NCBI GenBank assembly: GCA_017550535.1
Contig: JAFZOS010000083.1
Span: 1-58,098, forward strand
Origin: Lachnospiraceae bacterium
GTDB lineage: Bacteria > Bacillota > Clostridia > Lachnospirales > Lachnospiraceae
Length of the DNA: 58,098 bases
Reading direction: 5' to 3'
The notes beneath the pieces were generated by a model that saw nothing but the letters and a program-made list of their open reading frames with translations, was not told where the DNA came from and did no database searches. The translations under genes were made by a program, and so were the position numbers. Shown here in pieces: positions 13,410 through 42,077 of the stretch. Every line of letters begins with the position of its first letter. Position 1 is the stretch's first letter.

Positions 13410-14792
13410 ATGTATTGTAGTAAATGCGGTAATGAAATAAAAGACGGGGCGAGGTTTTGCAAAGTTTGCGGGCAGGAGGTTTCGGACATGGGGACGGTTC
13501 TTCCGTCTGGTTTTTCGGGAAAACCAGACGGAAGAACCGTCCCCATGTCCGAAACCAAGTCCCACCGTCGTGCCTTGATCTGGCTGGCGGTTATCGCAGT
13601 GATCATGGTGCTTGCCGCCGTCATCGCGCTCGTTTTGGTCAAGCCATGGGAAAGCGATGAGGAGCCGGTAAAGGCGGTTAAGGAAGTCGAGAACAAGGTT
13701 GATAAGCCCAGTAAAAAGGAAGATAAGGCGGATGATTCTGCCATAAAGGATATAGTTGAAGAGGTAAAGGGTGATTCTGCCTATGATGCTTTTATTGATC
13801 GTGCTAAAGGATTTAAGTATATAAACGGGCTGGGCGGATATTTTGATGTGACGTCAGAACCTTTCAGCAATGATTCTACAGAGGATATTTCGGATATCCC
13901 GCTTGGTATGATCGATTGTTTCATTGAGGACTTTGACAGGGACGGTGCGGATGAGCTGCTTATGGCTGAGATGATCCGCGATGAGCATATATTATTTACC
14001 ATGTATGAGTATTACGGCAAGGTGGTGCCCTCAGGTGAATACGAGTTTGAATATCCCGTGATAACCTGCGGCGATAACAGTACGCATGTGTTTAGCTATG
14101 ACCATGACGGGAAGGAATGCATCGGGATATTTAATGATGTCGGGTACGGAATGGGCGTTGAGTACTACGGGACGCTGCAGTTTACGTGCCTTAAGTATGA
14201 CGGGAGCAGGTTTTCCGAAAAACATTATTACGGCTACGTCGGCTCGGACGGTGAGGTTGATACGGAATACTTCAATACTATAAAAGGCTGCGGGATAAAC
14301 CTCGACTGGGAGCAGATAGAGGGGCAGGGTGCCATAGGGAATATCATATCGGTAACGGGTGGAAAACGGATGTTTGACATCGACCTTCATGTTAACAATA
14401 AGTTTGGTGAAGGCTACTGTACGGTATGGTACGGCGGCAGTGCTGAGTTTTTCGGCTATTCGGGTTATGATTTTGCCATGGCCGATAAAAAGGATATTGA
14501 GGAATGGGAGTCGAGGAAGAAACAGCATGAGGCTTCCTATTATGTGATCCCGGACAGTTCCTTGCGGCTGCTTACCGAGGAGGACTTAGCGGGGCTTTCA
14601 AAGGATGATCTGCGTATAGCGAGGAATGAGATCGTGGCCCGTCATGAAAGGAAGTTTAAGGATAAAGACCTGCAGGCGTATTTTGATTCAAAGCCTTGGT
14701 ATAACGGCATGACCGACCCGGAATATTTTGACGAATCCTGCCTTAGCGACATCGAACGCAAGAACATGGATTTTATCAAGAAGCATGAGTGA
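13410..14792 (+). CDS. Zinc-ribbon, single-pass membrane protein with C-terminal YARHG domain
   Basis: The N-terminal zinc ribbon (C3, C6, C17, C20) is cytoplasmic. It is followed by about 24 residues encoded by a complete palindromic element (about 25-48), a transmembrane helix (about 55-76), a long extracytoplasmic acidic region and a C-terminal YARHG domain (about 385-460: LSKDDLRIARNEIVARHERKF...WYNGM). YARHG proteins are extracellular and of unknown function, often with zinc-ribbon anchors in Bacillota. The ATG at 13410 follows AGGGAGA. The ribbon and membrane helix are normally joined by a short linker, so the element probably lengthened that linker without harming either domain. Confidence 0.85.
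   Translation: MYCSKCGNEIKDGARFCKVCGQEVSDMGTVLPSGFSGKPDGRTVPMSETKSHRRALIWLAVIAVIMVLAAVIALVLVKPWESDEEPVKAVKEVENKVDKPSKKEDKADDSAIKDIVEEVKGDSAYDAFIDRAKGFKYINGLGGYFDVTSEPFSNDSTEDISDIPLGMIDCFIEDFDRDGADELLMAEMIRDEHILFTMYEYYGKVVPSGEYEFEYPVITCGDNSTHVFSYDHDGKECIGIFNDVGYGMGVEYYGTLQFTCLKYDGSRFSEKHYYGYVGSDGEVDTEYFNTIKGCGINLDWEQIEGQGAIGNIISVTGGKRMFDIDLHVNNKFGEGYCTVWYGGSAEFFGYSGYDFAMADKKDIEEWESRKKQHEASYYVIPDSSLRLLTEEDLAGLSKDDLRIARNEIVARHERKFKDKDLQAYFDSKPWYNGMTDPEYFDESCLSDIERKNMDFIKKHE
13481..13553. repeat. Palindromic element, complete, type A, inside a coding region
   Basis: Perfect 34-bp arms (TTCGGACATGGGGACGG... with its complement) around a five-base loop. It is translated in frame as about 24 residues of the zinc-ribbon/YARHG protein. 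Confidence 0.95.
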
Positions 14793-14802
14793 ATTCAGAA
14801 AG

Positions 14803-14817
14803 GGGGACGGTTCTTTT
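14803..14817. repeat. Palindromic element fragment
   Basis: GGGGACGGTTCTTTT, the core of a type-B left arm, directly after the YARHG gene. Confidence 0.55.
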
Positions 14818-14916
14818 TACTGATCATATTTTGAAAAAATGTCCATCTTTTCCTCTTTTCATGGGCATTTTGGTGATTTATAATATAAATGAAAGAATAA
14901 ATTGCTGGAGATAGTA

Positions 14917-15207
14917 ATGAAATCTGAAATATATGATTATATCGTTGAATGGGATGATGCCAAGAATGAGATAAATATTAATAAGCATGGTATAAGCTTT
15001 GAGACGGCAGCATATATTTTTAATGATGTTAACAGAATAGAGTACTATGATGAAGAGCATAGCAAAGACGAGGATAGATATTATACAATTGGAAAAGTAG
15101 AGGATGTTCTGTTTGTTGTATATACGGAGAGAGGTTCTTCGATACGCTTAATTTCAGCTCGATATGCGACCAAGAGAGAGGAGGCGATATATTATGGCAG
15201 TTGTTAA
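14917..15207 (+). CDS. brnT: BrnT family ribonuclease toxin
   Basis: Toxin of a type II BrnT/BrnA pair; BrnT has a RelE-like fold and cleaves RNA. Family hallmarks are VEWDDAKNEINI-KHGISFE near the N-terminus, HSKDEDRYYTIG in the middle and VVYTERG...IRLISARYATKREE at the C-terminus. The ATG at 14917 is preferred over a TTG at 14902 because GGAG lies 6 nt upstream. It overlaps the antitoxin start by 14 bp, the usual BrnT-BrnA order. Confidence 0.9.
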   Translation: MKSEIYDYIVEWDDAKNEININKHGISFETAAYIFNDVNRIEYYDEEHSKDEDRYYTIGKVEDVLFVVYTERGSSIRLISARYATKREEAIYYGSC

Positions 15208-15373
15208 AATGATGATAAAAAATACAGATAAACCTTCAAAAGAGCAGATACAGAAAATGCGAGAGGCAAAGAATAAGCCAATCGTTTTTGATGAAGATTC
15301 TCCTGAGATGACAGAATCAATGTTATCAAATTTTAAGAGAGTATATCCCCCAAAAGAAGCGGTAAAGCTGTAA
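15194..15373 (+). CDS. brnA: BrnA-like antitoxin
   Basis: 59 residues encoded immediately after and overlapping brnT. The ATG at 15194 follows AGAGGAGG by 9 nt; an upstream in-frame ATG at 15164 lies deep in brnT without a ribosome site. The sequence is Lys-rich at the N-terminus with an acidic centre (FDEDSPEMTESM), a segment typical of proteins paired with DUF497/BrnT toxins. Identification rests mostly on position; it is shorter than canonical BrnA and a full DNA-binding domain is not evident. Confidence 0.65.
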   Translation: MAVVKMMIKNTDKPSKEQIQKMREAKNKPIVFDEDSPEMTESMLSNFKRVYPPKEAVKL

Positions 15374-15386
15374 TGACGCTGAGATG

Positions 15387-15437
15387 ATAAATAAGCCCTT
15401 ATACATTTGCGAGGTATAAGGGCTTATTTATGTTTTT
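15387..15437. terminator. Bidirectional terminator between brnTA and higA
   Basis: An 18-bp perfect stem (ATAAATAAGCCCTTATAC with its complement) followed by six T on the plus strand and preceded by A/T-rich sequence serving the convergent gene. Confidence 0.85.
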
Positions 15438-15490
15438 TATGATTTTATATCTGCGACGGAGTCACCCTCGATAAGTGACCCATTAGTGTG

Positions 15491-15814
15491 TCACCCGTGA
15501 CTTACGTCCATGACAGATGGGAAAGGGATCACATTGGTTGGCTCATGTTGGCGGGCTTTCCAAAGGGTAAGTTTCTGCTGCATATTCATCCAACTTTCTA
15601 CGGACGTATTTGTTGCTTTGCTGATTCTTAAAGCCATTTCGGGACTGAGTGCAGCTTTTTCATTAATAAATTCTGATAAAGCTTTTCTGCTTACACCAAG
15701 CATATATGCTGCATCTGTAACAGTAAGATTAAGCGGGGTCATTACATCTTCACGAAAGATCGCCCCTGGATGAGTTGGTTTTCTTGTCGATTCCCTTTTT
15801 TGATCCGGTTTCAT
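15491..15814 (-). CDS. higA: HigA-type antitoxin, XRE family, no adjacent toxin
   Basis: 107 residues. The HigA/VapA-type domain begins KPTHPGAIFREDVMTPLNLTVTDAAYMLGVSRKALSEF and ends ESWMNMQQKLTLWKARQ. Start chosen at the Met of MKPDQKRES because AAGGA lies a few bases upstream and HigA proteins are about 100 residues; a longer frame to 15895 would add 27 atypical residues. No HigB is encoded upstream, where higB normally sits; an A/T-rich promoter-like region is found instead. A solitary antitoxin or regulator, probably a remnant of a pair. Confidence 0.82.
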   Translation of the reverse strand: MKPDQKRESTRKPTHPGAIFREDVMTPLNLTVTDAAYMLGVSRKALSEFINEKAALSPEMALRISKATNTSVESWMNMQQKLTLWKARQHEPTNVIPFPSVMDVSHG

Positions 15815-15974
15815 AGAAGTCCTTAAGACGTTTGTGAGTAAATGGTCACCTAGAATGATATAAGAAAAGGACTCTTGGCCCTTCGTTTTCAACAATGGGT
15901 CGAGTCCAATCTTAATTATATGATAGCATTATTTGGGAAAATGTCAATCTTTTGGAGGAAATTCTACAAGTCTT

Positions 15975-16006
15975 CAGACATGGGGACGGTTCTTCCGTCT
16001 GGTTTT
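15975..16006. repeat. Palindromic element, half copy, type A, at the 3' flank of the RAYT gene
   Basis: The left arm of type A (CAGACATGGGGACGG... to CTGGTTTT) with no right arm. It lies 20 bp beyond the stop codon of the RAYT gene. Confidence 0.9.
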
Positions 16007-16026
16007 GCTTGAAACACCATGCCCGA

Positions 16027-16779
16027 TCATCCCAGACTTTTAATATACTCAATCCTGTATTTGCTGATCCCTGTTATCCTGGAGAGTTGTCTTATTGCTA
16101 TGCCGGAACGTAAACACTTATTTACGGTGGCATTAAGATGCGTTTTATCCAGCCTGCACAAATCCTGTGGATTTACAAATCCGCTTGTTGATCTTATCAA
16201 TTCAATAGCATCTCTGTCATTCAACCTTATCGGAGCTTTGTCATCAAGATGCGAATTTAAGCATTCACCCTCGATAAAATTCAGAATTTCTTTTTGAGGC
16301 AATGATACATACTCACCAATATCATCTATCAGTTTGGTTACTTGCCTGATTCTGCTGCATTCAAGCCACTTATAATCGAATATGGAATTACACAATCCGG
16401 CCTTTATAGGATTATGGCATATGTATCGGAGGACATCGAGAAAATATGGATCTGACTCAACTGCTTCGCTTCTGAAGCGATCTTGAAAAAGATGCCCATA
16501 TAACTCATATTTCTTGTTGTAGTAAGATACGTATGATACGCCGATGCGTTTGAAGATAAGTTCAAGCGGTTCGTCCTGTTCCTTTATGAGCATATGAACA
16601 TGATTGTCCATAAGACAGTAGGCATATAGTTTGAAGTTTGACTTTTCCTTGGCTTTTTCTACCTTCTTAAGAAAGACGTATCTGTCCATGTCATCGGTAA
16701 AGATAATACGTCTATCCATTCCCCTCAGCATAATATGGTATAGTCCGGTACTGGATTTGATCCTTTGTGTTCTGCTCAA
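16027..16779 (-). CDS. REP-associated tyrosine transposase (RAYT), Y1/IS200-like
   Basis: 250-residue single-strand transposase of the HUH Y1 superfamily. The metal-binding HUH motif is DNHVHML (H60, H62) and the catalytic tyrosine is Y119 in RYICHNP. The N-terminal GLYHIMLRG and the FxxRF segment (FQDRFRSE) fit the RAYT family. A C-terminal helix-turn-helix-like region (IRQLSRITGISKYRIEYI) is present, as in many Bacillota RAYTs. RAYTs bind and cut REP hairpins. A half element lies 20 bp downstream and a full one about 190 bp upstream, so this is the natural candidate for moving the dispersed palindromes. Both strand orientations around it are otherwise empty of genes. Confidence 0.92.
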   Translation of the reverse strand: MSRTQRIKSSTGLYHIMLRGMDRRIIFTDDMDRYVFLKKVEKAKEKSNFKLYAYCLMDNHVHMLIKEQDEPLELIFKRIGVSYVSYYNKKYELYGHLFQDRFRSEAVESDPYFLDVLRYICHNPIKAGLCNSIFDYKWLECSRIRQVTKLIDDIGEYVSLPQKEILNFIEGECLNSHLDDKAPIRLNDRDAIELIRSTSGFVNPQDLCRLDKTHLNATVNKCLRSGIAIRQLSRITGISKYRIEYIKSLG

Positions 16780-16965
16780 GATTTGTTTTCCTTTTTGTTT
16801 TATGATATGGAGCTGTGTTTAAGCTCTGTATTTGGATGCGAGGTGATAATAGCACAGAATTCCTGGAGATTAAATAGAAAATAAGTGAATAAAAACGATT
16901 TGTAAAAGATATACAATTCTTAATACGTTTTATGTGATCGAAAATGAATGATTTTTGTTGAAATT

Positions 16966-17050
16966 GCTGGGTCAGACATGGGGACGGTTCTTCCGTCTGG
17001 TTTTTGTCAACAAAACCAGACGGAAGAACCGTCCCCATGTCTGACCCAGC
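16966..17050. repeat. Palindromic element, complete, type A, upstream of the RAYT gene
   Basis: Perfect arms extended outward by GCTGGG/CCCAGC, total about 85 bp, loop GTCAA region. It lies between the RAYT 5' end and the terminator of the GH94 gene. Confidence 0.95.
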
Positions 17051-17062
17051 CTGAATGCCAAA

Positions 17063-17084
17063 ATGCCCCGCGAAAGCGGGGCAT
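17063..17084 (-). terminator. Terminator of the GH94 gene
   Basis: A nine-base stem (ATGCCCCGC/GCGGGGCAT) with a tetraloop, 30 bp beyond the GH94 stop. The T-run on the minus strand is short, so strength is uncertain; the adjacent palindrome may assist. Confidence 0.7.
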
Positions 17085-17113
17085 TTCAAAGGAAGGAGAT
17101 TGGATGTTATAGA

Positions 17114-19549
17114 CTAACCCATTACAACTTCAACGTTGTATTCGGTTTTGCCTTCTTCATAGGGGATCACGCAGCCGTCAACTGCCTTGCCGTCAACGGT
17201 GAGTGACTTAACGCCCTTCTCAACATCTGAAGGGTTCTTAACATTGATATTATATGTAGCGCCGCGGAACTTACGCGTGATCTTGAAATCGCCGAATCCG
17301 TGCGGTACACAGGGATCAACTGAAAGTCCCTTATGCGTCGGATAAACACCTAAGATGTACTGCGAAATGTTGCAGAACGTCCATGCCGCGGTACCTGTAA
17401 GCCAGCTGTTCTTTCCTTCGCCGGGAAGGTATGCATCCGCACCCGCTACCATCTGGCAGTAAACGTAAGGCTCTGTCTTATGACGCTCGGATATTTCCTC
17501 GGTGTATGCAGGGCAGGTCTTCTTATATATCTCAAACGCCCTGTCGCCGCGTCCGATAACCGTCTCGGCGATCGAAACCCATGGATTGTTGTGACAGAAG
17601 ATACCCGCATTCTCCTTGTATCCGGGCGGATACGAGGTGATCTCGCCAAGCTCAAGGTGATACTTCGTATATGCAGGCTGTAAGATCATAACGCCGTAAT
17701 CGCAGTCAAGGTGCTTCTTGACAGAATCAAGAGCCTTCTCTGCAAGGCCTTCCTTAACACCGATTCCTGCGAGAGAACAGAAGCCGTTTGATTCTATGAA
17801 AATCTTACCCTCTTCACATTCCTTGGAACCTATCTTTTTGCTGTATGCATCATACGCGCGGACGAACCATTCGCCGTCCCAGCCATCCTTAAGAACAGCA
17901 TCGTACATAACCTTAACTTCGTTCCTTGCGCGCTCAGCCTCGGCAGTATCTCCGAGGAGTTCGGCGAGCTGTGCATATTCCTCGCCGTACTTAACGAACA
18001 TGCCCGCGATGAACACAGACTCAGCAACCGGGCCCTCCGAAGGACCGAAGCACTGGAATGATTCTCCGGGATGCTCCGAGAAGCAGTTAAGGTTTAAGCA
18101 GTCGTTCCAGTCGGCGCGGCCGATAAGAGGCAGCCCGTGAGGTCCCTTGTTGTTAACGGTAAAGTCAAACGACCTCTTAAGGTGCTCCATAAGCGTTGTG
18201 GCCTTGCTCATGTCATTATCGTAAGGCACCTGCTCCTTAAGGATCGAGGTGTCGCCCGTCTCACGTACATAAGCCGAAACGCCTGCGATGAGCCACAGAG
18301 GATCATCGTTAAAGCCGGAACCAATATCTGAATTACCGCGCTTTGTAAGCGGCTGGTACTGATGATATGCGCTTCCATTTTCAAACTGCGTCGAAGCGAT
18401 ATCGATGATACGCTCCCTCGCGCGCTCGGGAATAAGATGTACGAAACCAAGCAGATCCTGGTTTGAATCCCTGAAGCCCATTCCGCGGCCGATCCCCGAC
18501 TCATAATATGAAGCGGAACGGCTCATGTTGAAAGTAACCATGCACTGGTACTGGTTCCAGATGTTTACCATGCGGTTAACCTTGTCGTTGTTTGATTCTA
18601 ATGTATAGATAGAAAGCAGCTTGCTCCAGTAATCATTAAGCTCGGCGAAAGCCTTATCGACATCGGCATCCGTCTTGTACTTCGCAAGCAGCTTGTTCGA
18701 AGGATCCTTCTTGATGACGCCCTTGCTCTCCCACTTGTCGTCGTCGGGGTTCTCGCAGTAGCCGAGCACGAAAACGAATGATTTTGATTCTCCGGGTTTA
18801 AGAGTCACATTTATCTGATGCACCGCAACCGGCGACCAGCCGTGCGCGATCGAACCCGTGCACTCGCCCTTTTCACATACCTCGGGATTGCTGTTGTCGC
18901 GGTAAGCGCCGAGGAACGCATCCCTTGATGTGTCGAAGCCGTCAACCTTCGTATTTACCGAGAAAACGGCGTAGTGATTGCGGCGCTCCCTGTACTCGGT
19001 CTTGTGATAGATCGTAGAATCGATCACCTCAACCTCGCCCGTCGAGAAGTTACGCTGGAAATTCCTCGAATCATCGTCGGCGTTCCATAAGCACCACTCG
19101 ACGTACGAAAACAGTTTAAGTTCCTTTATCTCGTCAGAATCATTCGTAAGCCTGACCCTGTTTATCTCGCAGGTATCGCCCATCGGCACGAAAGCCAGTG
19201 TTTCGGCGCTGACACCGTTCTTTTTCGATGCGAACTTTGAATACCCCATGCCGTGACGGCATTCGTAAGAATCAAGCTCCGTTTTCGTCGGCTGCCAGCC
19301 GATGTTCCAAACGGTGTCGCCGTCCTTTATATAGTAGTATTTGCCGTTGTTGTCGGCAGGAATGTTGTTATAACGATAACGTGTAAGCCGCAGGAGCTTG
19401 GCATCCTTATAGAAGGAATAGCCGCCGCAGGTGTTTGAAATCAGTGTAAAAAAGTCGTTGCAGCCGAGATAATTGATCCACGGAAGCGGAGTTTTCGGCG
19501 TGGTTATCACGTATTCCCGGTTTTCGTCATCAAAGTATCCGAATTTCAT
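17114..19549 (-). CDS. Cellobiose phosphorylase-like glycosyltransferase, GH94
   Basis: Cytoplasmic phosphorylase that would cleave cellobiose with phosphate to alpha-glucose 1-phosphate and glucose. 811 residues, the usual length for cellobiose phosphorylase. The conserved block [15 protein letters not shown] (351-365), the segment [20 protein letters not shown] (386-405) and the general acid D483 in ADWNDCLN are present. The Met at 19549 is preferred to 19624 because AAAGGA lies about 9 nt before it and [15 protein letters not shown] is the conserved family start. It is divergent from the LacI gene, with an operator-like site between 19600 and 19613. Cellodextrin or other beta-glucoside phosphorylase activity is possible, but the sequence looks closest to cellobiose phosphorylase. 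Confidence 0.9.
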
Positions 19550-19599
19550 ATGCGCGTGTCCTTTCATTATAAATAATGTTAATGGCGGGCGTGGGTTTC

Positions 19600-19613
19600 T
19601 GAAAACGATTAAG
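19600..19613. promoter_or_regulatory. Candidate LacI-type operator near the GH94 start
   Basis: TGAAAACGATTAAG resembles the site at 19763-19776 (GAAAACG-TTAAG shared) and has the central CG of LacI-family operators. It lies about 50 bp upstream of the GH94 start codon. Confidence 0.55.
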
Positions 19614-19749
19614 TTAACCCACAAAAAAAATAAGAAACCTGATGAAATTATACAACAATGAAATCAATGATTCAACAGTATTTATCAAAAAATAATGAAA
19701 AATGCACAAAAGGTTTTATAATGCTATTGAAAAATTGGCATATTTGATA

Positions 19750-19776
19750 TATACTTGTTTTCGAAAACGTTTAAGC
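19750..19776 (+). promoter_or_regulatory. Promoter -10 and LacI-type operator of the regulator gene
   Basis: TATACT (19750-19755), with TTGAAA about 15-16 bp upstream, is followed at once by TTTTCGAAAACGTTTAAG, a partly palindromic LacI-family operator. The arrangement fits autorepression. Confidence 0.55.
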
Positions 19777-19797
19777 ACCATAACGGGGGATTAAGGG

Positions 19798-20805
19798 ATG
19801 GTTTCATTAAAGGATATCGCTGTAAAGTGCAAGGTTTCGGTAGCCACGGTAAGTAAGGCGCTTAATGACCATAACGATGTGGGAGCCGCCACAAAGGAGC
19901 TTATACGCAAAGCTGCAAGGGAGATGGGGTATTTCCCCAATTCTTCGGCACGGGCGTTAAAGACAAACCGTACCTATAATATAGGCGTGCTATTTGTCGA
20001 TGAGGCACAGAGCGGACTCACTCATGATTATTTCGCTCATGTGCTCGACAGTTTCAAGAAAACGGTCGAGGCAGGCGGATACGACATAACCTTCATAAAT
20101 TCAACGCACACCAAGCATATGTCATACCTTGAGCACAGTCATTATCGGGGTGTTGACGGTGTTGTCATCGCCTGCGTTGACTTCTATGATCCACAGGTAA
20201 TGGAACTTATCCATTCCGACCTTCCCGTTGTTACGATCGACCACGTATTTGATTACCGCATCGCGGTTTTATCCGATAATATACAGGGCATGCATGACCT
20301 CGTTGAATACGTTTATTCAAAGGGCCACAGGAAGATAGCTTATATCGCCGGCGACGACACATCGGTTACGAAAAACCGTCTGGGAAGCTTCTACCGCAGC
20401 CTTGAAAAGAAAGGTGTCGAAGTTCCCGATGAATATGTACGCCAGGCTTCATACAGGCATCCTGATATGGCTTATGAGCACACAAAGGAGCTGTTAAAGC
20501 TTCCCGAGCGTCCAACCTGCATACTTTATTCGGATGATTATTCTGCGATAGGCGGCATCAACGCGATAAACGATGCCGGGCTTTCGATCCCCGGCGACAT
20601 ATCCATCGCAGGATATGACGGAAGCTACATCTCACAGATAATAAGCCCCAGGCTTACTACTATAAAACAGGACACCGAAAGCATAGGAAGAGTTGCAGCC
20701 GAGAAGCTCATACACCTTATTGAGAACCCCAAGACAACTCTCATCCAGAGGATGCTCATAAACGGAACGCTTATCGAAGGCGACTCCGTCGCAGATATAA
20801 ATTAA
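19798..20805 (+). CDS. LacI family transcriptional regulator
   Basis: 335 residues. N-terminal helix-turn-helix (VSLKDIAVKCKVSVATVSKALN) with the minor-groove hinge helix (NSSARALKTNRT), then a periplasmic-binding-protein-like effector domain (about 62-335, with GVDGVVIACVDF and ISIAGYDGS). It is encoded divergently from the GH94 gene and just upstream of the GH2 and GH36 genes, so it is the likely local regulator; the inducer would be an oligosaccharide released from the substrate polymer. Confidence 0.93.
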   Translation: MVSLKDIAVKCKVSVATVSKALNDHNDVGAATKELIRKAAREMGYFPNSSARALKTNRTYNIGVLFVDEAQSGLTHDYFAHVLDSFKKTVEAGGYDITFINSTHTKHMSYLEHSHYRGVDGVVIACVDFYDPQVMELIHSDLPVVTIDHVFDYRIAVLSDNIQGMHDLVEYVYSKGHRKIAYIAGDDTSVTKNRLGSFYRSLEKKGVEVPDEYVRQASYRHPDMAYEHTKELLKLPERPTCILYSDDYSAIGGINAINDAGLSIPGDISIAGYDGSYISQIISPRLTTIKQDTESIGRVAAEKLIHLIENPKTTLIQRMLINGTLIEGDSVADIN

Positions 20806-20809
20806 AGAT

Positions 20810-20881
20810 TCGGACACGGGGACGGTTCTTCCGTCTGGTTTTGTTGACAAAACCAGACGGAAGAACCGTCCCCGTGTCTGA
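20810..20881. repeat. Palindromic element, complete, type A, before the GH2 gene
   Basis: Near-perfect arms beginning TCGGACACGGGG and ending CCCCGTGTCTGA. It lies between the LacI stop and the GH2 start; the GH2 ribosome site TGAGG begins about 4 bp after it. Confidence 0.95.
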
Positions 20882-20895
20882 CAAATGAGGTCTAT

Positions 20896-23451
20896 ATGGT
20901 ACGGATTGATAAAGACATTCAATGGAAAATGAGAATAGCAGGTACCGATACATGGTATCCGGCCACGGTCCCTGGTTCTGTTTATAATGACCTGTTAAAC
21001 GCGGGTGTGATGGAGGATCCGTACTGGCGTGATAATGAGGATGAGGCCCTTGCGCTCATGGATAATGACTTTGAGTATCGCGGAACGTTTGATGTGAATG
21101 ATGCCATGCTTGGGGATGTCACTGCCGACGAAGTCATCCTGCGTTTTAATGGCCTTGATACGATCGCAGACATATCATTGAATGGAGAATCACTCGGCCG
21201 CGTCAACAACATGCACCGCACGTGGGAATACCCCGTAAAACGTCTTCTAAGGGCCAAAGATAACGAACTTGTCATTATCTTTCATTCACCCGTTAAATTC
21301 ATCGCTGAAGAATATAAGAAGGATCCCGGTATCCTCGGTACAGAGGATGCCATGCTTGGATTCCCTCATATAAGGAAAGCCCACTATATGTTTGGCTGGG
21401 ACTGGGGCCCGAGGCTGCCTGATGCCGGCATATGGAGGAGCGTTGAGCTGCTTGCCGTAAGGGAGGCAAGGCTTGAGAACGTATATATCAGGCAGGAGTT
21501 TTCGCGGGACACGGGGACGGTTCTTTTGTCCTGCGAAAAACGCGGGACGAAAGAACCGTCCCCGTGTCCCGCCGGTGAGTCGTTTCGCCTTCTTATCACG
21601 GTGATCGATCCCAAAGGAAATAAAGTGTACGATAAAGTGGACATAACCTCGACGCCCATAGCCATAGAAAATCCAAGGCTCTGGTGGCCGAACGGGCTGG
21701 GTGAGCAGCCGCTGTATACGGTAACTGTCGAACTTGAGTTAATGAAGACGGAAGAACCGTCCCCGTGTCTGAAAAACCAGACGGAAGAACCGTCCCCGTG
21801 TCTGGATACATGGACCCGGCGTATCGGTTTGAGAAAACTTGAAGTAAGTACTAAAAAGGATGAGTACGGTTCGGAGTTTGCGCATGTGATTAACGGGGTT
21901 AAGTTCTTTGCGATGGGTGCTGACTATATCCCCGAGGATAATATCCTGCCGCGGACGAATCCCAAAAGAACACGCAAATTACTGGAGCAGTGCAAGGCAG
22001 CGCATTTTAACTGCATCCGTGTATGGGGCGGAGGTCTGTACCCGTCGGATGATTTTTACGATATCTGCGACGAGCTGGGGCTCGTCGTATGGCAGGATTT
22101 CATGTTTGCCTGTGCAAATTACAGGCTGACGGATGATTTTAGGGAAAACATAACCGCCGAGCTTAAAGACAATATAAGGCGCCTTCGGCATCACGCGAGC
22201 CTTGGGCTTTGGTGCGGCAACAATGAGATGGAACTGTTTGCCGGTGAAGGCCACTGGGGCGCCGATGATGACATAAGGCACGACTATCTTAAGATGTATG
22301 AGGACCTGTTCCCGAAGATCGTTAAGGAGGAGGATCCCGACAGGTTTTACTGGCCGGCATCGCCTTCGTGCGGCGGTGGGTTTGATTCTCCCAACGATCC
22401 CGACAGGGGCGACGTTCACTACTGGGACGTATGGCACGGGAACAAGCCGTTTACGGAGTACCGGAAGTTCTATTTCAGGTACCTGTCGGAGTTCGGCTTT
22501 CAGTCCTTCCCGTCGATAAAAACCGTCGAGAGCTTCACATTGCCCGGGGACCGCAACGTGTTCTCATATATAATGGAGAAGCACCAGAAAAACGCGTCGG
22601 CGAACGGCAAGATAATGAACTACCTTGAGCAGATGTTCTTATATCCTAACGACCTGGATACGCTAATATACGCATCGCAGATCCTGCAGGCCGAGGCGAT
22701 CCGCTACGGCGTAGAGCATCTAAGGCGCAACCGCGGGCGCTGCATGGGCACCGTGTACTGGCAGCTTAACGACTGCTGGCCGGTGGCGTCGTGGTCGTCG
22801 ATCGATTATTACGGGCGGTGGAAGGCGCTGCATTATTATGCGAAGCGGTTCTTTGCGCCCCTCGTGATCTCCTGCGAGGAAGAAGGGCTGCTGACGCAGT
22901 CACTTAATGTAAACGCCGAGCCTTTCCCGGTCAGGCGGTCGATACGCCTAAGCGTCGCAAACGAAACTTTAAGCGGTTTTTCAGGCACAGTATCGTGGCA
23001 GCTTCGAAGGCCCGACAGCAGTATAATAAGGGAAGAATCACACGCCGTAACTCTAAGCCCCATGTCCTCTTTATGGCTTGATAAGGTGGAACTGCCGGAA
23101 GCTGTTGTAAACGGCAAAGGATCCGGGGTATTATATAATGAATATGTAAGCTATCAGCTGCGCGAAAACGGTGCAGGTGATGATAATGAAGTGGTTTCCG
23201 AAGGCACGGTGCTTTTCTGTCCGCCAAAGCATTTTAAGTTTGAGGACCCTAAGCTTAGCTTAAGGATCGAGGGCGATGAAATCGTTGTATCGGCCGCAGC
23301 GTATGCAAAATCAGTTGAGATAAGGAACGAAAATGACGACCTTATCCTTTCGGATAATTTCTTCGACATGAACGCGGGGGAGAAGAGGGTTAAGATACTT
23401 AGGGGAAATCCGAGGGGACTTTCGGTACGAAGTGTATATAGTATAAGGTAA
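20896..23451 (+). CDS. Beta-mannosidase-like glycoside hydrolase, GH2, with two translated palindrome inserts
   Basis: 851 residues, cytoplasmic. Predicted to remove beta-mannosyl residues from the non-reducing end of manno-oligosaccharides. The GH2 layout is clear: N-terminal sugar-binding domain (about 1-190, ending FGWDWGPRLPDAGIWR), Ig-like domain (about 190-320), TIM barrel (about 320-640), then C-terminal beta domains. Acid/base E444 is in CGNNEME and nucleophile E532 in LSEFGFQ. The Ig-like domain is broken by foreign segments at about 203-226 (a type-B element) and 284-303 (two type-A right halves), both in frame and still open. They fall around surface loops and strand ends of this domain, so activity may survive, but this is unproven. 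The start has a weak site, TGAGG. Confidence 0.88.
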   Translation: MVRIDKDIQWKMRIAGTDTWYPATVPGSVYNDLLNAGVMEDPYWRDNEDEALALMDNDFEYRGTFDVNDAMLGDVTADEVILRFNGLDTIADISLNGESLGRVNNMHRTWEYPVKRLLRAKDNELVIIFHSPVKFIAEEYKKDPGILGTEDAMLGFPHIRKAHYMFGWDWGPRLPDAGIWRSVELLAVREARLENVYIRQEFSRDTGTVLLSCEKRGTKEPSPCPAGESFRLLITVIDPKGNKVYDKVDITSTPIAIENPRLWWPNGLGEQPLYTVTVELELMKTEEPSPCLKNQTEEPSPCLDTWTRRIGLRKLEVSTKKDEYGSEFAHVINGVKFFAMGADYIPEDNILPRTNPKRTRKLLEQCKAAHFNCIRVWGGGLYPSDDFYDICDELGLVVWQDFMFACANYRLTDDFRENITAELKDNIRRLRHHASLGLWCGNNEMELFAGEGHWGADDDIRHDYLKMYEDLFPKIVKEEDPDRFYWPASPSCGGGFDSPNDPDRGDVHYWDVWHGNKPFTEYRKFYFRYLSEFGFQSFPSIKTVESFTLPGDRNVFSYIMEKHQKNASANGKIMNYLEQMFLYPNDLDTLIYASQILQAEAIRYGVEHLRRNRGRCMGTVYWQLNDCWPVASWSSIDYYGRWKALHYYAKRFFAPLVISCEEEGLLTQSLNVNAEPFPVRRSIRLSVANETLSGFSGTVSWQLRRPDSSIIREESHAVTLSPMSSLWLDKVELPEAVVNGKGSGVLYNEYVSYQLRENGAGDDNEVVSEGTVLFCPPKHFKFEDPKLSLRIEGDEIVVSAAAYAKSVEIRNENDDLILSDNFFDMNAGEKRVKILRGNPRGLSVRSVYSIR
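21504..21572. repeat. Palindromic element, complete, type B, inside the GH2 gene
   Basis: 69 bp, exactly 23 codons, arms GCGGGACACGGGGACGG... and its near-perfect complement with loop AAAAA. Translated in frame in the beta-mannosidase. Confidence 0.95.
21746..21804. repeat. Two tandem right-half palindromic elements, type A, inside the GH2 gene
   Basis: AGACGGAAGAACCGTCCCCG occurs twice in direct orientation, giving the protein repeat TEEPSPCL twice. No left arms, so this is a partial or rearranged insertion. Confidence 0.93.
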
Positions 23452-23453
23452 AA

Positions 23454-23528
23454 GCCAGACACGGGGACGGTTCTTCCGTCTGGTTTTTGTCAACAAAACC
23501 AGACGGAAGAACCGTCCCCGTGTCTGGC
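23454..23528. repeat. Palindromic element, complete, type A, between GH2 and GH36
   Basis: 75 bp, arms GCCAGACACGGGG... and its complement. It starts just after the GH2 stop codon and ends directly against the AAAGGAGG of the GH36 gene, inside an apparent operon. Confidence 0.95.
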
Positions 23529-23540
23529 AAAGGAGGAATC

Positions 23541-25799
23541 ATGAGTACAATAAAATACCTTGCAAACGAAAAAATATTCAAACTCGATACGCCGGGATCA
23601 TCGTATGTCTTCGGCATCATCGACGAGGAGAAGTTCCTGCTGCATATGTATTACGGCGGCAGGATAAGCGACGATGATATAAGGTACCGTACAAGGACAA
23701 ATGACTATCCGTTCACGCCGGAGAAAAACAACAGGGACCGGGGCGCCTTCCTTGACAGTGCGTATTTTGAATATCCGACAGAGGGTGTCGGGGATTTCAG
23801 GGCAGGCTGTTTGAGGCTTCGTGATAATGATGGGCATGCGGGCTGCCAGCTTAGTTATGTAAACCATAAGATATATAAGGGCAAACCCGGGCTTGAGGGG
23901 CTTCCGGCAACTTACGTAGCTGACGCAAATGATGCGACAACGCTGAAAGTAAGGCTCGAGGATAAGCTTACCGGGCTGATCGTGACTCTTAATTACACCG
24001 TATTTGAGGACCTTGATGTCATCGCAAGGAGTGTTGGGTTTGAGAATGCAGGAAGGGACACGCTGTATCTTGAGAGTGCATTATCCCTTTGCCTTGATAT
24101 GGAAAATGAGGATTTTGAGATTATCACGTTAAACGGAAGCTGGGCCCGTGAACGTCACACAGACAGGACACGCATAGGATACGGAAGGCATGAAGTATCC
24201 TCAACACGAGGCGAAAGTTCGCATCAGGTCAATCCGTTCATGGCGGTCCTTAACCGTGAAACCACACAGACGTTAGGTGCGGTTTACGGCTTCAGCTTCG
24301 TATATTCCGGGAATTTTACCGCAAGTGTTGAGAGAAACCAGCATGACAGCCTGCGCTGCCTGATGGGCATAAATCCCAAAGGCTTTACATGGAAGCTTAC
24401 ACCAGGAGAAACCTTCACCGCACCGGAGGCCGTAATGGTGTATTCGGGCAGCGGCCTTGACCATATGACGCATACCTTCCATGACCTTTTCAGGGACCAC
24501 CTTATCTGCGGCGCAAACTTAAGCAGCAGGTACAAGGACGCACCGCGCCCGATCCTTATAAATAACTGGGAAGCAACGTATTTTGATTTTGATGATGAAA
24601 AGCTGTTATCGATCGCAAAAGAAGCGGCAAAGTGCGGCATCGAGATGCTCGTCATGGATGACGGCTGGTTTGCGAACCGCAGCTCTGACAACATGGCCCT
24701 CGGCGACTGGTACGTCAATGAGGACAAGCTAAAGGGCGGGCTTAAAAAGCTCGTTGACGCGGTAAACAATGAAGGCCTTAAGTTCGGTATATGGGTTGAG
24801 CCGGAGATGGTATCGCCTGATTCTGATCTTTACCGCAAACACTCCGACTGGGCGATCGCGATACCGGGCAGGCCCGCGACCCTTATGCGGAACCAGTATG
24901 TGCTCGATATGTCGCGCGATGAGGTCGCAGAGGAGATATATTCGCGCATTCACGCGGTGCTTTCGTCCGCAAACATAGAATATGTAAAATGGGACATGAA
25001 TCGGACACTTTGCGATCTTGGAAGTTATGCGCTTGATTCTGACAGGCAGGGCGAACTGTGCCACCGGTACATGCTGAACGTCTATAAAATGCAAAAGCGG
25101 CTGATGGATGATTTTCCGAATATCCTGCTCGAAAACTGCTCCGGAGGGGGCGGCCGTTTCGATCCCGGGATGCTCTATTACGGCCCGCAGATATGGTGCT
25201 CTGACGACACCGATGCGATCGAGCGCCTGCGCATCCAGGAGGGCACTGCGATCGTGTATCCGCTCTCGACGATGGGCGCGCATGTGAGCGACTGTCCGAA
25301 CCATGTAACGGGCAGGATCGCGCCGTTTGAGACCCGCGGCCACGTGGCGCTTGCCGGCACCTTCGGCTATGAGCTCGATATAACGAAGATAAGCGAAAAC
25401 GACAGGGCGCTTATCCCTGCGCAGGTTGAGATGTATCATAAGTATAACGAGCTTGTGCGCGCGGGCGATTACTACAGGCTTGCATCGTACGCGGATAACG
25501 GTTTTTACGATGCGTGGGAAGTGGTAAATAAGGAAGAATCACACGCCCTCGTTACCTACATAAAAGTCATGGCGCGCCCGTATACGCGAAGCAATGTCAT
25601 AAAGCCGCGAGGCCTTGATCCGAAACGCAGGTACATGGTAAGCTGCGACAAGAATATACTGGGGCTGGCGGGTGATTCTTACAAACCGCTCATACTGCAC
25701 GGCGATACACTCATGAACGCGGGGATCATGATAAACGAAAACGCCGAAGAAATGAAGGGCGATTTCCGCAGCGCACTTATAGAGATAAGCGCGGTGTAA
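23541..25799 (+). CDS. Alpha-galactosidase, GH36
   Basis: 752 residues, cytoplasmic tetrameric-type alpha-galactosidase (AgaA/MelA group), removing alpha-1,6-galactose from galactomanno-oligosaccharides or raffinose sugars. The nucleophile D485 is in VKWDMNR and the acid/base D555 in CSDDTDAIER, 70 residues apart as in the family. CSGGGGRFDPGML and WVEPEMVSPDSDLY are also typical. Start at 23541 follows AAAGGAGG; the frame extends upstream through the palindrome, but that extension is not part of the family. With the upstream beta-mannosidase it would allow full breakdown of galactosyl-decorated mannan fragments. Confidence 0.93.
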   Translation: MSTIKYLANEKIFKLDTPGSSYVFGIIDEEKFLLHMYYGGRISDDDIRYRTRTNDYPFTPEKNNRDRGAFLDSAYFEYPTEGVGDFRAGCLRLRDNDGHAGCQLSYVNHKIYKGKPGLEGLPATYVADANDATTLKVRLEDKLTGLIVTLNYTVFEDLDVIARSVGFENAGRDTLYLESALSLCLDMENEDFEIITLNGSWARERHTDRTRIGYGRHEVSSTRGESSHQVNPFMAVLNRETTQTLGAVYGFSFVYSGNFTASVERNQHDSLRCLMGINPKGFTWKLTPGETFTAPEAVMVYSGSGLDHMTHTFHDLFRDHLICGANLSSRYKDAPRPILINNWEATYFDFDDEKLLSIAKEAAKCGIEMLVMDDGWFANRSSDNMALGDWYVNEDKLKGGLKKLVDAVNNEGLKFGIWVEPEMVSPDSDLYRKHSDWAIAIPGRPATLMRNQYVLDMSRDEVAEEIYSRIHAVLSSANIEYVKWDMNRTLCDLGSYALDSDRQGELCHRYMLNVYKMQKRLMDDFPNILLENCSGGGGRFDPGMLYYGPQIWCSDDTDAIERLRIQEGTAIVYPLSTMGAHVSDCPNHVTGRIAPFETRGHVALAGTFGYELDITKISENDRALIPAQVEMYHKYNELVRAGDYYRLASYADNGFYDAWEVVNKEESHALVTYIKVMARPYTRSNVIKPRGLDPKRRYMVSCDKNILGLAGDSYKPLILHGDTLMNAGIMINENAEEMKGDFRSALIEISAV

Positions 25800-27229: not shown

Positions 27230-27262
27230 TTTCGTTACTCCTTATTGTATATTATATCACAT

Positions 27263-28588: not shown

Positions 28589-28601
28589 GAATAACAAGGG
28601 T

Positions 28602-28629
28602 GGGACAAAAGAACCGTCCCCGTGTCCCA
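28602..28629. repeat. Palindromic element, half copy, type B
   Basis: Right arm only (GGGACAAAAGAACCGTCCCC and onward), 14 bp after the malic enzyme stop. Confidence 0.85.
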
Positions 28630-28893: not shown

Positions 28894-30036
28894 ATGACAA
28901 AATTTGAGCTGATCGCACCCTGCCATTTTGGAATGGAAGCGGTGCTCAAAAGAGAGATATTTGACTTGGGATACGACGTCACCGAAGTGGCCGACGGGAG
29001 GGTGACTTTTGAGGGCGATGAGGAGGCTGTCGTGCGCGCCAACATTTCCCTTCGGACCGCCGAGCGCATCCTTATAAAAGCCGCGTCTTTTAAGGCGACG
29101 ACCTTCGATGAGCTGTTCGAAGGCACGAAGGCCGTGCACTGGGAGGATTACATCCCGAAAGACGGTAAGTTCTGGGCCGCCAAGGCCTCCGGCATAAAAA
29201 GCAAACTCTTCAGCTCATCCGACATCCAGTCGATCGTCAAAAAAGCAATGGTCGAGCGCCTAAAGCAGACCTATAACATAAGCTGGTTTGAAGAAACCGG
29301 CGCATCCTATCCCCTTCGCGTATCCATAATGAAGGATCTGGTCACGATAGGCCTTGATACGAGCGGAGAATCACTTCACAAGCGCGGTTACAGAAAGCTC
29401 GTGAGCAAGGCGCCCGTCGCCGAAAACCTGGCCGCCGCGATGATCATGCTCACTCCCTGGAATAAGGACAGGATCCTTGTCGATCCCTTCTGCGGCAGCG
29501 GCACCATTCCCATCGAGGCTGCCATGATCGCCTGCAATATCGCCCCCGGACTAAACCGGAGCTTTACAGCGCAGGACTGGGGTAATATCATAGGAAGTGA
29601 TATATGGGATGAGGTGCGGGAAGAATCACGCGAACTCATCGATTTAAGTGTCGAAACGGATATCCAGGGCTACGACATTGACGGTGATATAATAAAGGCT
29701 GCAAGGGACAACGCAGCTCTTGCGGGAGTAGCGGATAAGATCCATTTCCAGAGGCGTCCGGTAGCAGAACTCAGGCATCCTAAAAAGTACGGTTTTATCA
29801 TAACCAACCCTCCCTACGGCGAACGCATCGGGGATAAGGAAGAGATGGCCGGGCTTTACCGTGAGTTGTGTGATTCTTACAAAGGTCTTGACTCCTGGTC
29901 TGCATACATAATCACCGGGTTTGACGAAGTCGAGAAGATCATGGGCCGCAAGGCTGACAAAAACCGCAAGATCTACAACGGAATGATGAAGACATATTAT
30001 TATCAGTTCATGGGGCCCAAGCCCCCGAAGCGTTAA
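28894..30036 (+). CDS. THUMP-domain class I SAM-dependent RNA methyltransferase (RlmL/YpsC type)
   Basis: 380 residues. An N-terminal ferredoxin-like region and THUMP RNA-binding domain (about 1-160) precede a Rossmann methyltransferase with the SAM motif VDPFCGSGTIPIE and the catalytic NPPY motif (NPPYGERIG). This architecture matches the N-terminal half of RlmL and B. subtilis YpsC, which make N2-methylguanosine in 23S rRNA. It opens a run of closely spaced genes (16-35 bp gaps) containing rdgB and the phosphodiesterase, probably an operon. Confidence 0.92.
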   Translation: MTKFELIAPCHFGMEAVLKREIFDLGYDVTEVADGRVTFEGDEEAVVRANISLRTAERILIKAASFKATTFDELFEGTKAVHWEDYIPKDGKFWAAKASGIKSKLFSSSDIQSIVKKAMVERLKQTYNISWFEETGASYPLRVSIMKDLVTIGLDTSGESLHKRGYRKLVSKAPVAENLAAAMIMLTPWNKDRILVDPFCGSGTIPIEAAMIACNIAPGLNRSFTAQDWGNIIGSDIWDEVREESRELIDLSVETDIQGYDIDGDIIKAARDNAALAGVADKIHFQRRPVAELRHPKKYGFIITNPPYGERIGDKEEMAGLYRELCDSYKGLDSWSAYIITGFDEVEKIMGRKADKNRKIYNGMMKTYYYQFMGPKPPKR

Positions 30037-33537: not shown

Positions 33538-33610
33538 TGAGCCACTGGGGATTCGAACCCCAGACAACTTGATTAAAAGTCAAGTGCTCTACCACCTGAG
33601 CTAGTGGCCC
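33538..33610 (-). tRNA. tRNA-Lys (anticodon TTT)
   Basis: Complete cloverleaf on the minus strand. Acceptor GGGCCAC/GTGGCTC, anticodon loop CTTTTAA, T-arm GGGGTTCGAATCCCC, discriminator A. CCA is not encoded. Confidence 0.95.
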
Positions 33611-33632
33611 ATGCATATTTAATTTCAAGCCG

Positions 33633-33672
33633 GTCATAAGGAATCCCCCACTTCGTGGTCCGCCCTTATGAC
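33633..33672. repeat. Hairpin between tRNA genes
   Basis: GTCATAAGG and CCTTATGAC-type arms flank an inner CCACTTCGTGG hairpin. A similar inner sequence (CCACCTCGTGGTCC) occurs at 28630-28643, so it may be another short dispersed palindrome, or a processing structure of the tRNA transcript. Confidence 0.5.
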
Positions 33673-33676
33673 GAAA

Positions 33677-33748
33677 CAGGGCTAGCCGGATTCGAACCAG
33701 CGAATGCAGGGATCAAAACCCTGTGCCTTACCGCTTGGCGATAGCCCT
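33677..33748 (-). tRNA. tRNA-Gln (anticodon TTG)
   Basis: Acceptor AGGGCTA/TAGCCCT, anticodon loop TTTTGAT, discriminator G as expected for Gln. CCA not encoded. Confidence 0.94.
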
Positions 33749-33785
33749 ACAAAAATCATTTGCCCTATTTATAATAGAGCAAAAG

Positions 33786-33860
33786 GGTGGGTAGAGGGAC
33801 TCGAACCCTCGGCCTCCAGAGCCACAATCTGGCGCGCTAACCAACTGCGCCATACCCACC
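33786..33860 (-). tRNA. tRNA-His (anticodon GTG)
   Basis: Acceptor GTGGGTA/TACCCAC with an encoded G at -1 opposite discriminator C, the His identity element; anticodon loop TTGTGGC. Confidence 0.95.
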
Positions 33861-33901
33861 ATATTACTTACTTAAATTTCATAGGGGCTATCGAACCCGA
33901 A

Positions 33902-33975
<74 letters not shown>

Positions 33976-39999: not shown

Positions 40000-40074
40000 T
40001 CGGGGTAACAGGATTCGAACCTGCGACCTCCTGGTCCCAAACCAGGCGCTCTAGCCAAGCTGAGCCATACCCCG
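40000..40074 (-). tRNA. tRNA-Pro (anticodon TGG), integration target
   Basis: Intact cloverleaf on the minus strand. Acceptor CGGGGTA/TACCCCG, anticodon loop TTTGGGA, discriminator A. Its 3' 25 bp are repeated at 39059-39083. Confidence 0.95.
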
Positions 40075-40135: not shown

Positions 40136-40199
40136 GGGACACGGGGACGGTTCTTTTGTCCCGCGTTTTTGGCAGGACAAAAGAACCGTCCCCGTGTCC
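40136..40199. repeat. Palindromic element, complete, type B, before birA
   Basis: Arms GGGACACGGGGACGG... with TTCTTTTGTCCCGC and its imperfect complement. It ends 3 bp before the GAGGAGA of birA. Confidence 0.93.
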
Positions 40200-40213
40200 G
40201 AGAGGAGAATCAC

Positions 40214-41098: not shown

Positions 41099-41107
41099 AA
41101 CACAGTG

Positions 41108-41168
41108 CAGACACGGGGACGGTTCTTCCGTCTGGTTAAACCAGACGGAAGAACCGTCCCCGTGTCTG
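41108..41168. repeat. Palindromic element, complete, type A, between convergent genes
   Basis: 61 bp, the most compact full copy, arms CAGACACGGGGACGG... meeting at TTAA. Placed between the convergent birA and Ala-rich protein genes where no other terminator is visible. Confidence 0.95.
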
Positions 41169-41184
41169 ATATCTCATACTGAGT

Positions 41185-41892
41185 TTAGTAATAACAATCA
41201 CACAGGCAGGGATTGTATCCTGCGGTGGGAAGCGTTGCCTGGAGTTTCTTTAAGGTCGCTTCCTTGGCGCTTGCGTCCGCATCCTGGTGCTTATACTGAG
41301 CTTCCAATGCGGCAGCCGTTGCGTTCAGCTCGTTAAGCTGCTGCATAAGCCCCGGATTCCCGTCTGCCTTGATGGCATCTATCCGTGCCTTTACATCATT
41401 GAGCCTGCTTAAGGTCGTGTTGGCAACGGCCCTTGCATTTGTTGCGGCCAGGCTTGCCTGATCGATGGTATTGATATTGTGCAGCAGTTCAAGGTTTCGA
41501 GCCTTGGGATCGACCGGTGTCTTGGGCTTTGTGGCCTGGGCGAACAATACGGGATTATTAAGAACTATCGTATTAAGGGCTGCCTGATTGGCAAGCACCG
41601 CAAGGATAGCTGCCTGATTTGCCTGATCCTGTTTCGCAAAAGCTGTCTGTGTTGCTGCGATCGCCGTAAGCATTGCCTTATCTGCCTGCTGCTGAGTGGC
41701 TATTGCATTCTGATTAGCTGCGGCCGCTGCCTGGTTTGCCTGTGCCGCGATTGCAGCCTTGTATTGGGGTGATGCCATTATGGCTGCAAGGATCGCAAGC
41801 TGCTGATCCGTAAGAGTGTTGGCCTTGACCGGGATGACTGCGACAAACGCCATCAAAACGGCCATTGCTATTGCTATGATTGATTTTTTCAT
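41185..41892 (-). CDS. Secreted Ala/Gln-rich helical protein with Cys-rich C-terminus
   Basis: 235 residues. Clear Sec signal (MKKSIIAIAMAVLMAFVAVIPVKA). The mature protein is rich in Ala, Gln and Asn with heptad-like helices (residues 30-110 and 135-215), suggesting a coiled coil, and ends NPCLCDCYY, where three Cys alternate with other residues. TGAGGTAAATTC precedes the ATG. I do not recognise a family. The Cys tail could bind metal, form cross-links or be a site of attachment. Confidence 0.7.
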   Translation of the reverse strand: MKKSIIAIAMAVLMAFVAVIPVKANTLTDQQLAILAAIMASPQYKAAIAAQANQAAAAANQNAIATQQQADKAMLTAIAATQTAFAKQDQANQAAILAVLANQAALNTIVLNNPVLFAQATKPKTPVDPKARNLELLHNINTIDQASLAATNARAVANTTLSRLNDVKARIDAIKADGNPGLMQQLNELNATAAALEAQYKHQDADASAKEATLKKLQATLPTAGYNPCLCDCYY

Positions 41893-41998
41893 ATGAATTT
41901 ACCTCACATTTAAAAGTTTAAAGAGTAATATAATTATATCATATTTAGCCTACAGAGGAACTCACAAGATATAAGGGCTGACTAACTATATATTGTGG

Positions 41999-42077
41999 AT
42001 TCGGACACGGGGACGGTTCTTCCGTCGGGTTGTTTATTGACAATACCAGACGGAAGAACCGTCCCCGTGTCCCGAAT
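41999..42077. repeat. Palindromic element, complete but diverged, type A
   Basis: Outer arms ATTCGGACACGGGG/CCCCGTGTCCCGAAT. The left inner arm has CGTCGGGT where others have CGTCTGGT, and the loop is longer. It lies just upstream of the symporter promoter. Confidence 0.92.

Follow-up and report, generated by a model that had tools for sequence, protein, structure and literature searches.

Loop-tagged REPINs beside a RAYT gene in a Lachnospiraceae genome and their in-frame copies at recurrent sites in host genes

One of the questions raised by a 58,098-nucleotide stretch of a Lachnospiraceae bacterium (assembly GCA_017550535.1, contig JAFZOS010000083.1; the whole stretch is called the window below) is how a palindromic repeat comes to lie both between genes and, in frame, inside two proteins. 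In this paper we looked at this repeat in the source genome, which is labelled G000, and in genomes of relatives, which bear other G labels; L labels denote fetched loci. The repeats are REPINs, that is, two repetitive extragenic palindromic sequences (REPs) in inverted orientation. The explanation that we consider quite probable is that they are mobilised as single-stranded DNA hairpins by an adjacent REP-associated tyrosine transposase (RAYT), with recurrent insertion at the same sites within genes. The repeats and their in-gene copies had been described in an original prediction, and this description was confirmed, with coordinates right to a few bases and reading frames as given; its interpretation as a whole is partly supported.

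The core of the repeat, GGGGACGGTTCTT, has 25 matches in the window, all of them exact, and 105 in the whole genome (2,738,471 bases in 103 contigs), where the reversed core, used as a control pattern, has none. There are 45 exact inverted pairs of cores genome-wide, and 104 of the 105 exact cores are held in 58 element places, 47 of which are full pairs. The REP hairpin consists of an unpaired loop of 13 nt, (A/G)GGGAC(G/A)GTTCTT in G000, and a stem of 5-9 bp. Two main stem types, CAGAC/GTCTG and GGGAC/GTCCC, are found around the identical core in G000, and in the relatives the loop is retained while the stem is often wholly different.

The pairing of these changing stems was measured in several sets of arms. 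A contiguous stem of at least 5 pairs accompanies 167 of 329 core matches, against 19.4 when the flanks are re-paired between genomes (93 labels; one locus was entered twice in this count, L077 and L146 being an identical stretch). In arms collected without regard to the stem (105 distinct exact cores at up to about 400 bp from RAYTs of named genomes, from 41 loci), pairing amounts to 0.65-0.75 at pairs 3-6 from the loop, compared with a null of 0.28-0.42, and this peak is confined to the one register that gives a 13-nt loop, with none in four slid registers. Covariation was analyzed in 42 arms, namely the window's arm and, for each of the 41 loci, the arm listed first. It reaches 0.501, compared with 0.209 for shuffled and 0.153-0.215 for slid arms; 65.3% of the cells pair, and 95 double-sided stem changes are seen where 45.9 are expected.

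The next question regards the player that could move such hairpins. A RAYT gene sits in the window between a single REP and a full REPIN:

16027..16779, minus strand: RAYT, a Y1/HUH transposase-like gene (Pfam PF01797, NCBIfam, PDB profile and fold, conserved columns)
15975..16001, plus strand: single REP about 25 bp past the RAYT stop codon (core 15982-15994)
16973..17043, no strand assigned: full REPIN upstream of the RAYT (cores 16980-17036; flanks complementary for 7 more bp)

Its protein matches Pfam PF01797 with 49.2 bits (cut-off 23), which is the sole PF01797 match found in the genome, and scores 76.1 bits against NCBIfam REP_Tyr_transpos (NF047646), just below the cut-off of 80. The only PDB profile match is the TnpA-REP structure 4er8 (E=2e-6), which is also the first fold match of the AlphaFold model (mean pLDDT 90.9; E=1.5e-8). 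The conserved columns show an HxH motif at residues 60-62 and an invariant Y119, and in the model a C-terminal extension forms helices between residues 188 and 249. HTH_23 is reached by 10 of 32 proteins at E<=1 (best 0.00076), and the window protein itself shows no HTH match. The motif GGGGWSAS, known from the repeats that flank the TIRYTs (RAYTs associated with terminal inverted repeats), is missed by one letter in the window, GGGGACGG, and is present as GGGGACAG at L109, L132, L139 and L148. Judged by this motif and by the C-terminal helices, the window RAYT probably belongs to RAYT subclass 2.1/TIRYT, an assignment that is not certain. Another open reading frame, 41185-41892, was taken as a RAYT candidate by a guess from its position and was rejected, as it shows no Pfam match.

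The association between the hairpin and the enzyme extends to other genomes. We sampled the best 80 of at least 549 confirmed RAYT loci in named genomes; by title these are mostly Bacillota, with a few Bacteroidota, a Treponema and others. The stretch fetched around the RAYT of G035, a genome placed by kinship in the genus of the window, is found letter for letter in a contig of Lachnospiraceae bacterium RGIG3628 from goat rumen, so the source organism is probably a Lachnospiraceae of the rumen. A REP with a stem is found within about 400 bp of the RAYT at 42 of these 80 loci, and on both sides at 24. The density of REPs is 1.30 per kb near the RAYT and 0.082 per kb further off, and the reversed core has a single match in all around the 80 loci. 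With a relaxed motif, (A/G)GGG(A/T)(C/G) with a stem of at least 6, a hairpin appears at 16 of the 38 remaining loci, 12 of them in the same register as before, with a density of 1.04 per kb near the RAYT and 0.11 further off. A variant form was seen at L081 (G048), where the arms overlap and one stem half seems to be common to both; these variants lie near one of the 8 RAYT matches in G048.

Where do the copies lie? A home-made gene caller gave 91% coding on the fetched G000 DNA (373,654 bases). It overlooked the RAYT and MtaB genes and gave the YARHG gene a late start; each in-gene call was therefore checked against the coding score and the domains on both sides. The caller had marked eight places as inside genes. 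L059:7462 was removed for want of upstream coding signal, and two that it had called intergenic were added: L054:4545 (coding score on both sides; MtaB) and window 13490 (zinc ribbon upstream). A second gene model lists eight in-gene places, with window 13490 as weak. Gene ends that overlap an element (L039:3330, L043:2033, L063:4393) and frames that are open upstream without coding signal (window 40143, L049:6337, L051:4536, L058:4640, L035:5243) were left out. By this count 9 of the 58 places are in genes (8 genes), 30 are tandem-intergenic, 9 convergent, 7 divergent and 3 at contig edges. Elements are thus strongly depleted in genes, and the others are mostly found just behind stop codons, at a median distance of 9 bp from the nearest one. 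Of 44 full copies, 9 have flanking bases that prolong the palindrome by at least 4 bp, compared with 1.1 expected and at most 5 in 3,000 shuffles, which suggests that some insertions went into existing hairpins. Elsewhere, in-gene places number 3 of 27 in G014 and, in partly fetched genomes, 2 of 8 in G151, 0 of 10 in G328 and 0 of 9 in G274.

Two further places were noticed on the way. At L050:4479-4532 a REPIN is seemingly nested in another REP-like palindrome, with 14 bp of extra flank complementarity, which suggests insertion into resident REPs. At L238:3074-3119 (G151, of another family in the same order) a REPIN with another stem type lies inside a very long coding frame.

The in-gene copies of the window are found in two genes, as had been predicted:

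13410..14792, plus strand: host gene coding for a zinc ribbon, the element, a hydrophobic stretch (probably transmembrane) and a YARHG domain (Pfam, translation)
13478..13556, no strand assigned: full REPIN in frame at the junction of zinc ribbon and hydrophobic stretch (first described as 13481-13553)
20896..23451, plus strand: host gene coding for a GH2-family (mannosidase-like) glycoside hydrolase (Pfam, translation)
21504..21572, no strand assigned: full REPIN of 69 bp, in frame in a variable loop of the GH2 protein
21746..21804, minus strand: two tandem REP halves in one orientation, in frame with the GH2 gene; the linker is shorter in the relatives aligned over this stretch

Genome-wide the eight host genes code for the zinc-ribbon/YARHG protein, the GH2 protein (two places), an MBOAT protein, a histidine kinase, a DUF4910/HTH protein, MtaB, an NADH-dehydrogenase/Mrp-like subunit and MutS2. 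Several elements lie at domain borders: at residues 613-636 between DUF4910 and HTH_47, at MutS2 residues 633-654 just ahead of the MSSS domain, and at MtaB residues 174-196 between UPF0004 and Radical_SAM. When the host proteins were aligned with homologues, the segment was found to be missing from many element-free relatives; where a relative does have a similar segment, it also has a DNA hairpin of its own at that place. Not every case is a clean insertion. MiaB has a linker of like length at the position of the element in MtaB, so this case is a replacement, and the same is seen when MutS2 of L064 is compared with solved MutS2. For the YARHG gene no clean empty site could be demonstrated against four re-aligned relatives (32-37% identical); the relative at L325 has a proline-rich linker where the element would be.

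The copies lie in frame in conserved genes: those for MutS2, the kinase, MBOAT and GH2, the four that were tested, are under purifying selection, with a dN/dS of 0.048-0.110 in seven of nine comparisons (dS was saturated in the other two). As far as the reading frames tell, the copies are open to being read as protein and would be translated with their hosts.

Are the same sites used more than once? The counts given here refer to the best-matching loci examined for each host gene. The MBOAT linker holds REPs in 5 of 15 genomes and in different phases: phase 0 in G000 and G003, phase 2 in G014, phase 1 in G026, and a half copy in G035. In MutS2, 4 of 25 genomes have an element near residue 633 (G000, G027, G026 and G032, the last with a half copy) and 2 of 25 have one near residue 109; the histidine kinase site is filled in 2 of 12. 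The GH2 site is filled in 2 of 15, G014 having its own REPIN in the same loop, and there is in addition a degenerate half in G003, reported apart, with an exact core, a stem of 2 and a left side that is G003's GGTACCG stem. One-mismatch cores without a stem at L064 (residue 59), L289 and L103 (stem 2 each) were not counted. All three in-gene places of G014 fall in genes that also carry copies in G000 (GH2, kinase and MBOAT), and the stems at recurrent sites are of the species' own type wherever other REPs of that species were seen.

A tree of MutS2 (16 of the 25 genomes) does not group the four genomes filled near residue 633, with five inner forks left open. G014 and G003, which are near G000, show no core at this site even at three mismatches. 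The linker of G009, sister of G032, resembles a decayed form of the copy in G032, and a core-like stretch with three mismatches is present at this site in G023 and G035, which are near G027. These stretches could be relics, which would favour an older presence. Every in-gene arm, whether of the 18 in G000 or the 6 in G014, has an exact core, and its genome contains another arm that differs from it at 0-1 of 27 nt, while 50-64% of the synonymous sites in four host genes differ between G000 and G014; the present copies must therefore postdate the split or have been homogenised since.

The mechanism that in our view best fits these data is that the adjacent RAYT, a Y1/HUH enzyme, mobilises REPs as single-stranded hairpins, for which it would read the loop together with a lineage-specific stem. 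The stem could then drift freely provided that pairing is kept. Copies would pile up mainly just behind stop codons, and an in-gene insertion would persist only at permissive sites where the host frame runs through the element without a stop, so that the same few sites would be re-hit in related species by each species' own REP. Re-insertion would take place, independently each time, in whichever frame is open, and old copies could decay into ordinary linker sequence.

Several observations weigh against this mechanism. The canonical REP tag GT[AG]G stands at chance (9 of 103 and 12 of 157 arms, with about 10% expected), so the family is filed as a variant and not as a canonical GTAG REP. At 22 of the 80 RAYT loci no hairpin of either form, canonical or relaxed, is found within about 400 bp. 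G014 is rich in REPs, yet a single, distant Y1 match (35% over 138 aa) was all that could be found in it, and the flanks fetched around that match contain no core. The kinase copy (residues 254-276) lies within the HisKA match and the full GH2 copy (residues 204-225) within the Glyco_hydro_2 match, not between domains. Mobility itself is something that we infer, and the genomes are drafts, many of the named ones assembled from metagenomes. The G009 remnant and the core-like stretches of G023 and G035 in MutS2 also fit inheritance with homogenisation by gene conversion.

That last option deserves to be taken seriously, and we regard it as possible, if doubtful. Here the in-gene insertions would be ancestral and inherited, and would be homogenised to the current REP by gene conversion or RAYT-driven exchange, without any repeated insertion. 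The close relatives G000 and G014 share the kinase and GH2 sites in the same phase, as G009 and G032 share the MutS2 site near residue 109, and in-gene arms are nearer to the arms of their own genome than intergenic ones are (0.44 against 1.02, and 0.17 against 1.65, of 27 nt), just as homogenisation would have it. It is harder to reconcile with the three phases in MBOAT, which would need paired compensating indels, or with the lack of any core near MutS2 residue 633 in G014 and G003. A further option, which we hold to be unlikely, is that the repeats serve above all as transcription terminators, a host function for which they were spread or retained, and that the in-gene copies are accidents. 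The short distance to the stop codon and the palindrome-extending flanks would suit such a role; the arms are also terminator-like with a T run on both strands, and positions 13000-29000 of the window hold 36 terminator-like sites compared with 15.4 in shuffles. Termination leaves unexplained the linkage to the RAYT, the covarying stems around an invariant loop and the in-frame copies at the same sites. That the repeats were simply misjoined in draft assemblies is scarcely credible: genomes of the same genus are indeed split into about 20 to 410 contigs (rounded), but at about 70 bp the elements are short for assembly repeats, the host genes align to homologues in frame on both sides of the element, and the same sites are filled by different REP sequences in separately assembled genomes.

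The original prediction offered another explanation, that the sequence is free of stop codons because it was selected for life inside genes. The two consensus arms of G000 are indeed stop-free in all six frames, and all three host frames are used across species. The property does not extend to the element as a whole, since only 22 of the 47 full copies are open in six frames; in a trinucleotide-level check of 44 full copies, a stop was found in the arm of 2 and in the spacer of 21. Nor is it rare, since about 32% of random 6-bp stems placed around the fixed loop contain no stop. In 101 arms from 65 genomes, 47 have no stop where shuffled stems give 47.1, and the mean is 1.16 stops per arm against 1.21, so that stops are as frequent as in shuffled stems. 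The idea of free spread through coding DNA likewise fails, with 9 of 58 places in genes though about 91% of the fetched DNA is coding. We consider selection for stop-free arms very improbable; openness seems to follow from the conserved loop and some stems as a side effect, and where an arm is open in all frames this helps survival in genes. What does hold of that proposal is that the elements can supply protein linker sequence, as the use of all three frames across species and what looks like a decayed element in the MutS2 linker of G009 indicate.

How does mobilisation by the RAYT relate to known systems? The Rickettsia palindromic elements had been named as the closest parallel, with the adjacent RAYT overlooked; given this gene, the REPIN/RAYT and TIRYT systems are closer. 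REPIN/RAYT systems, as outlined in PMC3116915 (Bertels and Rainey 2011) and for TnpA-REP in PMC8266576, likewise have a single Y1/HUH gene between REPs, together with tens of inverted REP doublets that are mostly extragenic, and hairpin recognition is expected. The family of the window differs in that it has a 13-nt GGGGAC loop and a covarying stem instead of an above-chance GT[AG]G foot, and its RAYT has a C-terminal helical extension. The TIRYTs and TIRtrons, in the portrayal of PMC3733652, have a RAYT with an HTH-like C-terminus and flanking repeats that share GGGGWSAS. In PMC3733652 and PMC6006769 these repeats appear as terminal inverted repeats, some of them self-complementary or dimeric, whereas the repeats studied here prove to be REP hairpins with covarying stems, arranged as REPINs.

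The 2018 survey PMC6006769 treats subclass 2.1 as the second largest RAYT subclass and, in its account of this subclass, reports no REP-like sequences by automatic or manual search. According to the same account, 20 of the 26 TIRYTs of PMC3733652 fall in subclass 2.1, most inverted repeats that flank these TIRYTs show GGGG[AT][CG]A[CG], and further analysis is called for. The search settings given there, GTAG or GTGG feet and loops of 2-5 nt, are such that a 13-nt loop would be overlooked. The loop-tagged REP may thus be an answer to this gap, the missing REPs of subclass 2.1. On balance we lean towards the wider proposal that subclass 2.1/TIRYT enzymes have REPs tagged in the loop (GGGGAC, 13 nt), with drifting stems as lineage codes, and that REPINs repeatedly re-enter the same few protein sites in different species and frames, so that certain linkers of MutS2, MBOAT, sensor kinase and GH2 proteins would serve as recurrent docking sites where mobile DNA is continually rewritten into protein. 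The string of the core turned up in 4 papers, all with unrelated titles. No description of this loop-tagged element was found in the Creative Commons-licensed papers of PubMed Central, and a loop-tagged REP with GGGGAC is apparently undescribed so far.

Palindromes within proteins are known from other elements. The Rickettsia palindromic elements, with RPE-4 and RPE-6 treated as CGTC elements in PMC3733652, also lie in frame in genes of known proteins. The CGTC elements have, in that description, an 8-9 bp stem and a 4-5 nt loop, with no associated transposase reported; the family studied here has a 13-nt loop, an adjacent RAYT and mostly extragenic copies, a comparison made, for the Rickettsia elements, by description only. 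PMC3733652 also gives examples of GTAG and CGTC REPs that lie within the coding frames of known proteins, and reports different REPs at about one site in recB of two Xanthomonas species. The present case goes beyond this, with one site filled in up to five species by species-specific REPs in different frames. Such sites offer natural replicates of mobile DNA entering one protein site in different species and frames. By comparing them, with element-free relatives as controls, one can study how well linkers tolerate new sequence and how linker peptides arise. The loop-tagged hairpin with its covarying stem is directly testable by the published TnpA-REP assays.

The remaining REPINs and REPs of the window, with the other genes of note, are as follows:

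20811..20880, no strand assigned: intergenic REPIN, 5 bp past a predicted gene end
23456..23526, no strand assigned: intergenic REPIN, 4 bp past the GH2 stop codon
27266..27336, no strand assigned: intergenic REPIN with divergent genes on either side
40136..40200, no strand assigned: REPIN that either overlaps the longest frame of a biotin-ligase-like gene or lies immediately upstream of this gene; left out of the in-gene count
41108..41168, no strand assigned: intergenic REPIN with convergent predicted genes on either side
42002..42073, no strand assigned: intergenic REPIN with divergent predicted genes on either side
10917..10943, plus strand: single REP of the GGGAC-stem type (core 10924-10936)
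28602..28628, minus strand: single REP of the GGGAC-stem type (core 28609-28621)
14794..14824, plus strand: single core with a different, imperfect stem, TCAG.AA with TT.CTGA (core 14803-14815)
45758..45770, plus strand: isolated core without evident stem, perhaps a decayed REP
14902-15207 and 15491-15895: BrnT-like toxin gene and HTH/YdaS-like gene, between the YARHG gene and the RAYT
33538-33975 and 40000-40074, minus strand: five tRNA genes

An Rfam scan of 13000-43000 gave tRNAs only. Just ahead of the YARHG gene, at 13357-13386, there is a strong terminator-like hairpin, TCGGGACACGGG...CCCGTGTCCCGA, which has GGGACACGGG in common with the REP arm and is a possible origin or relic of the element.

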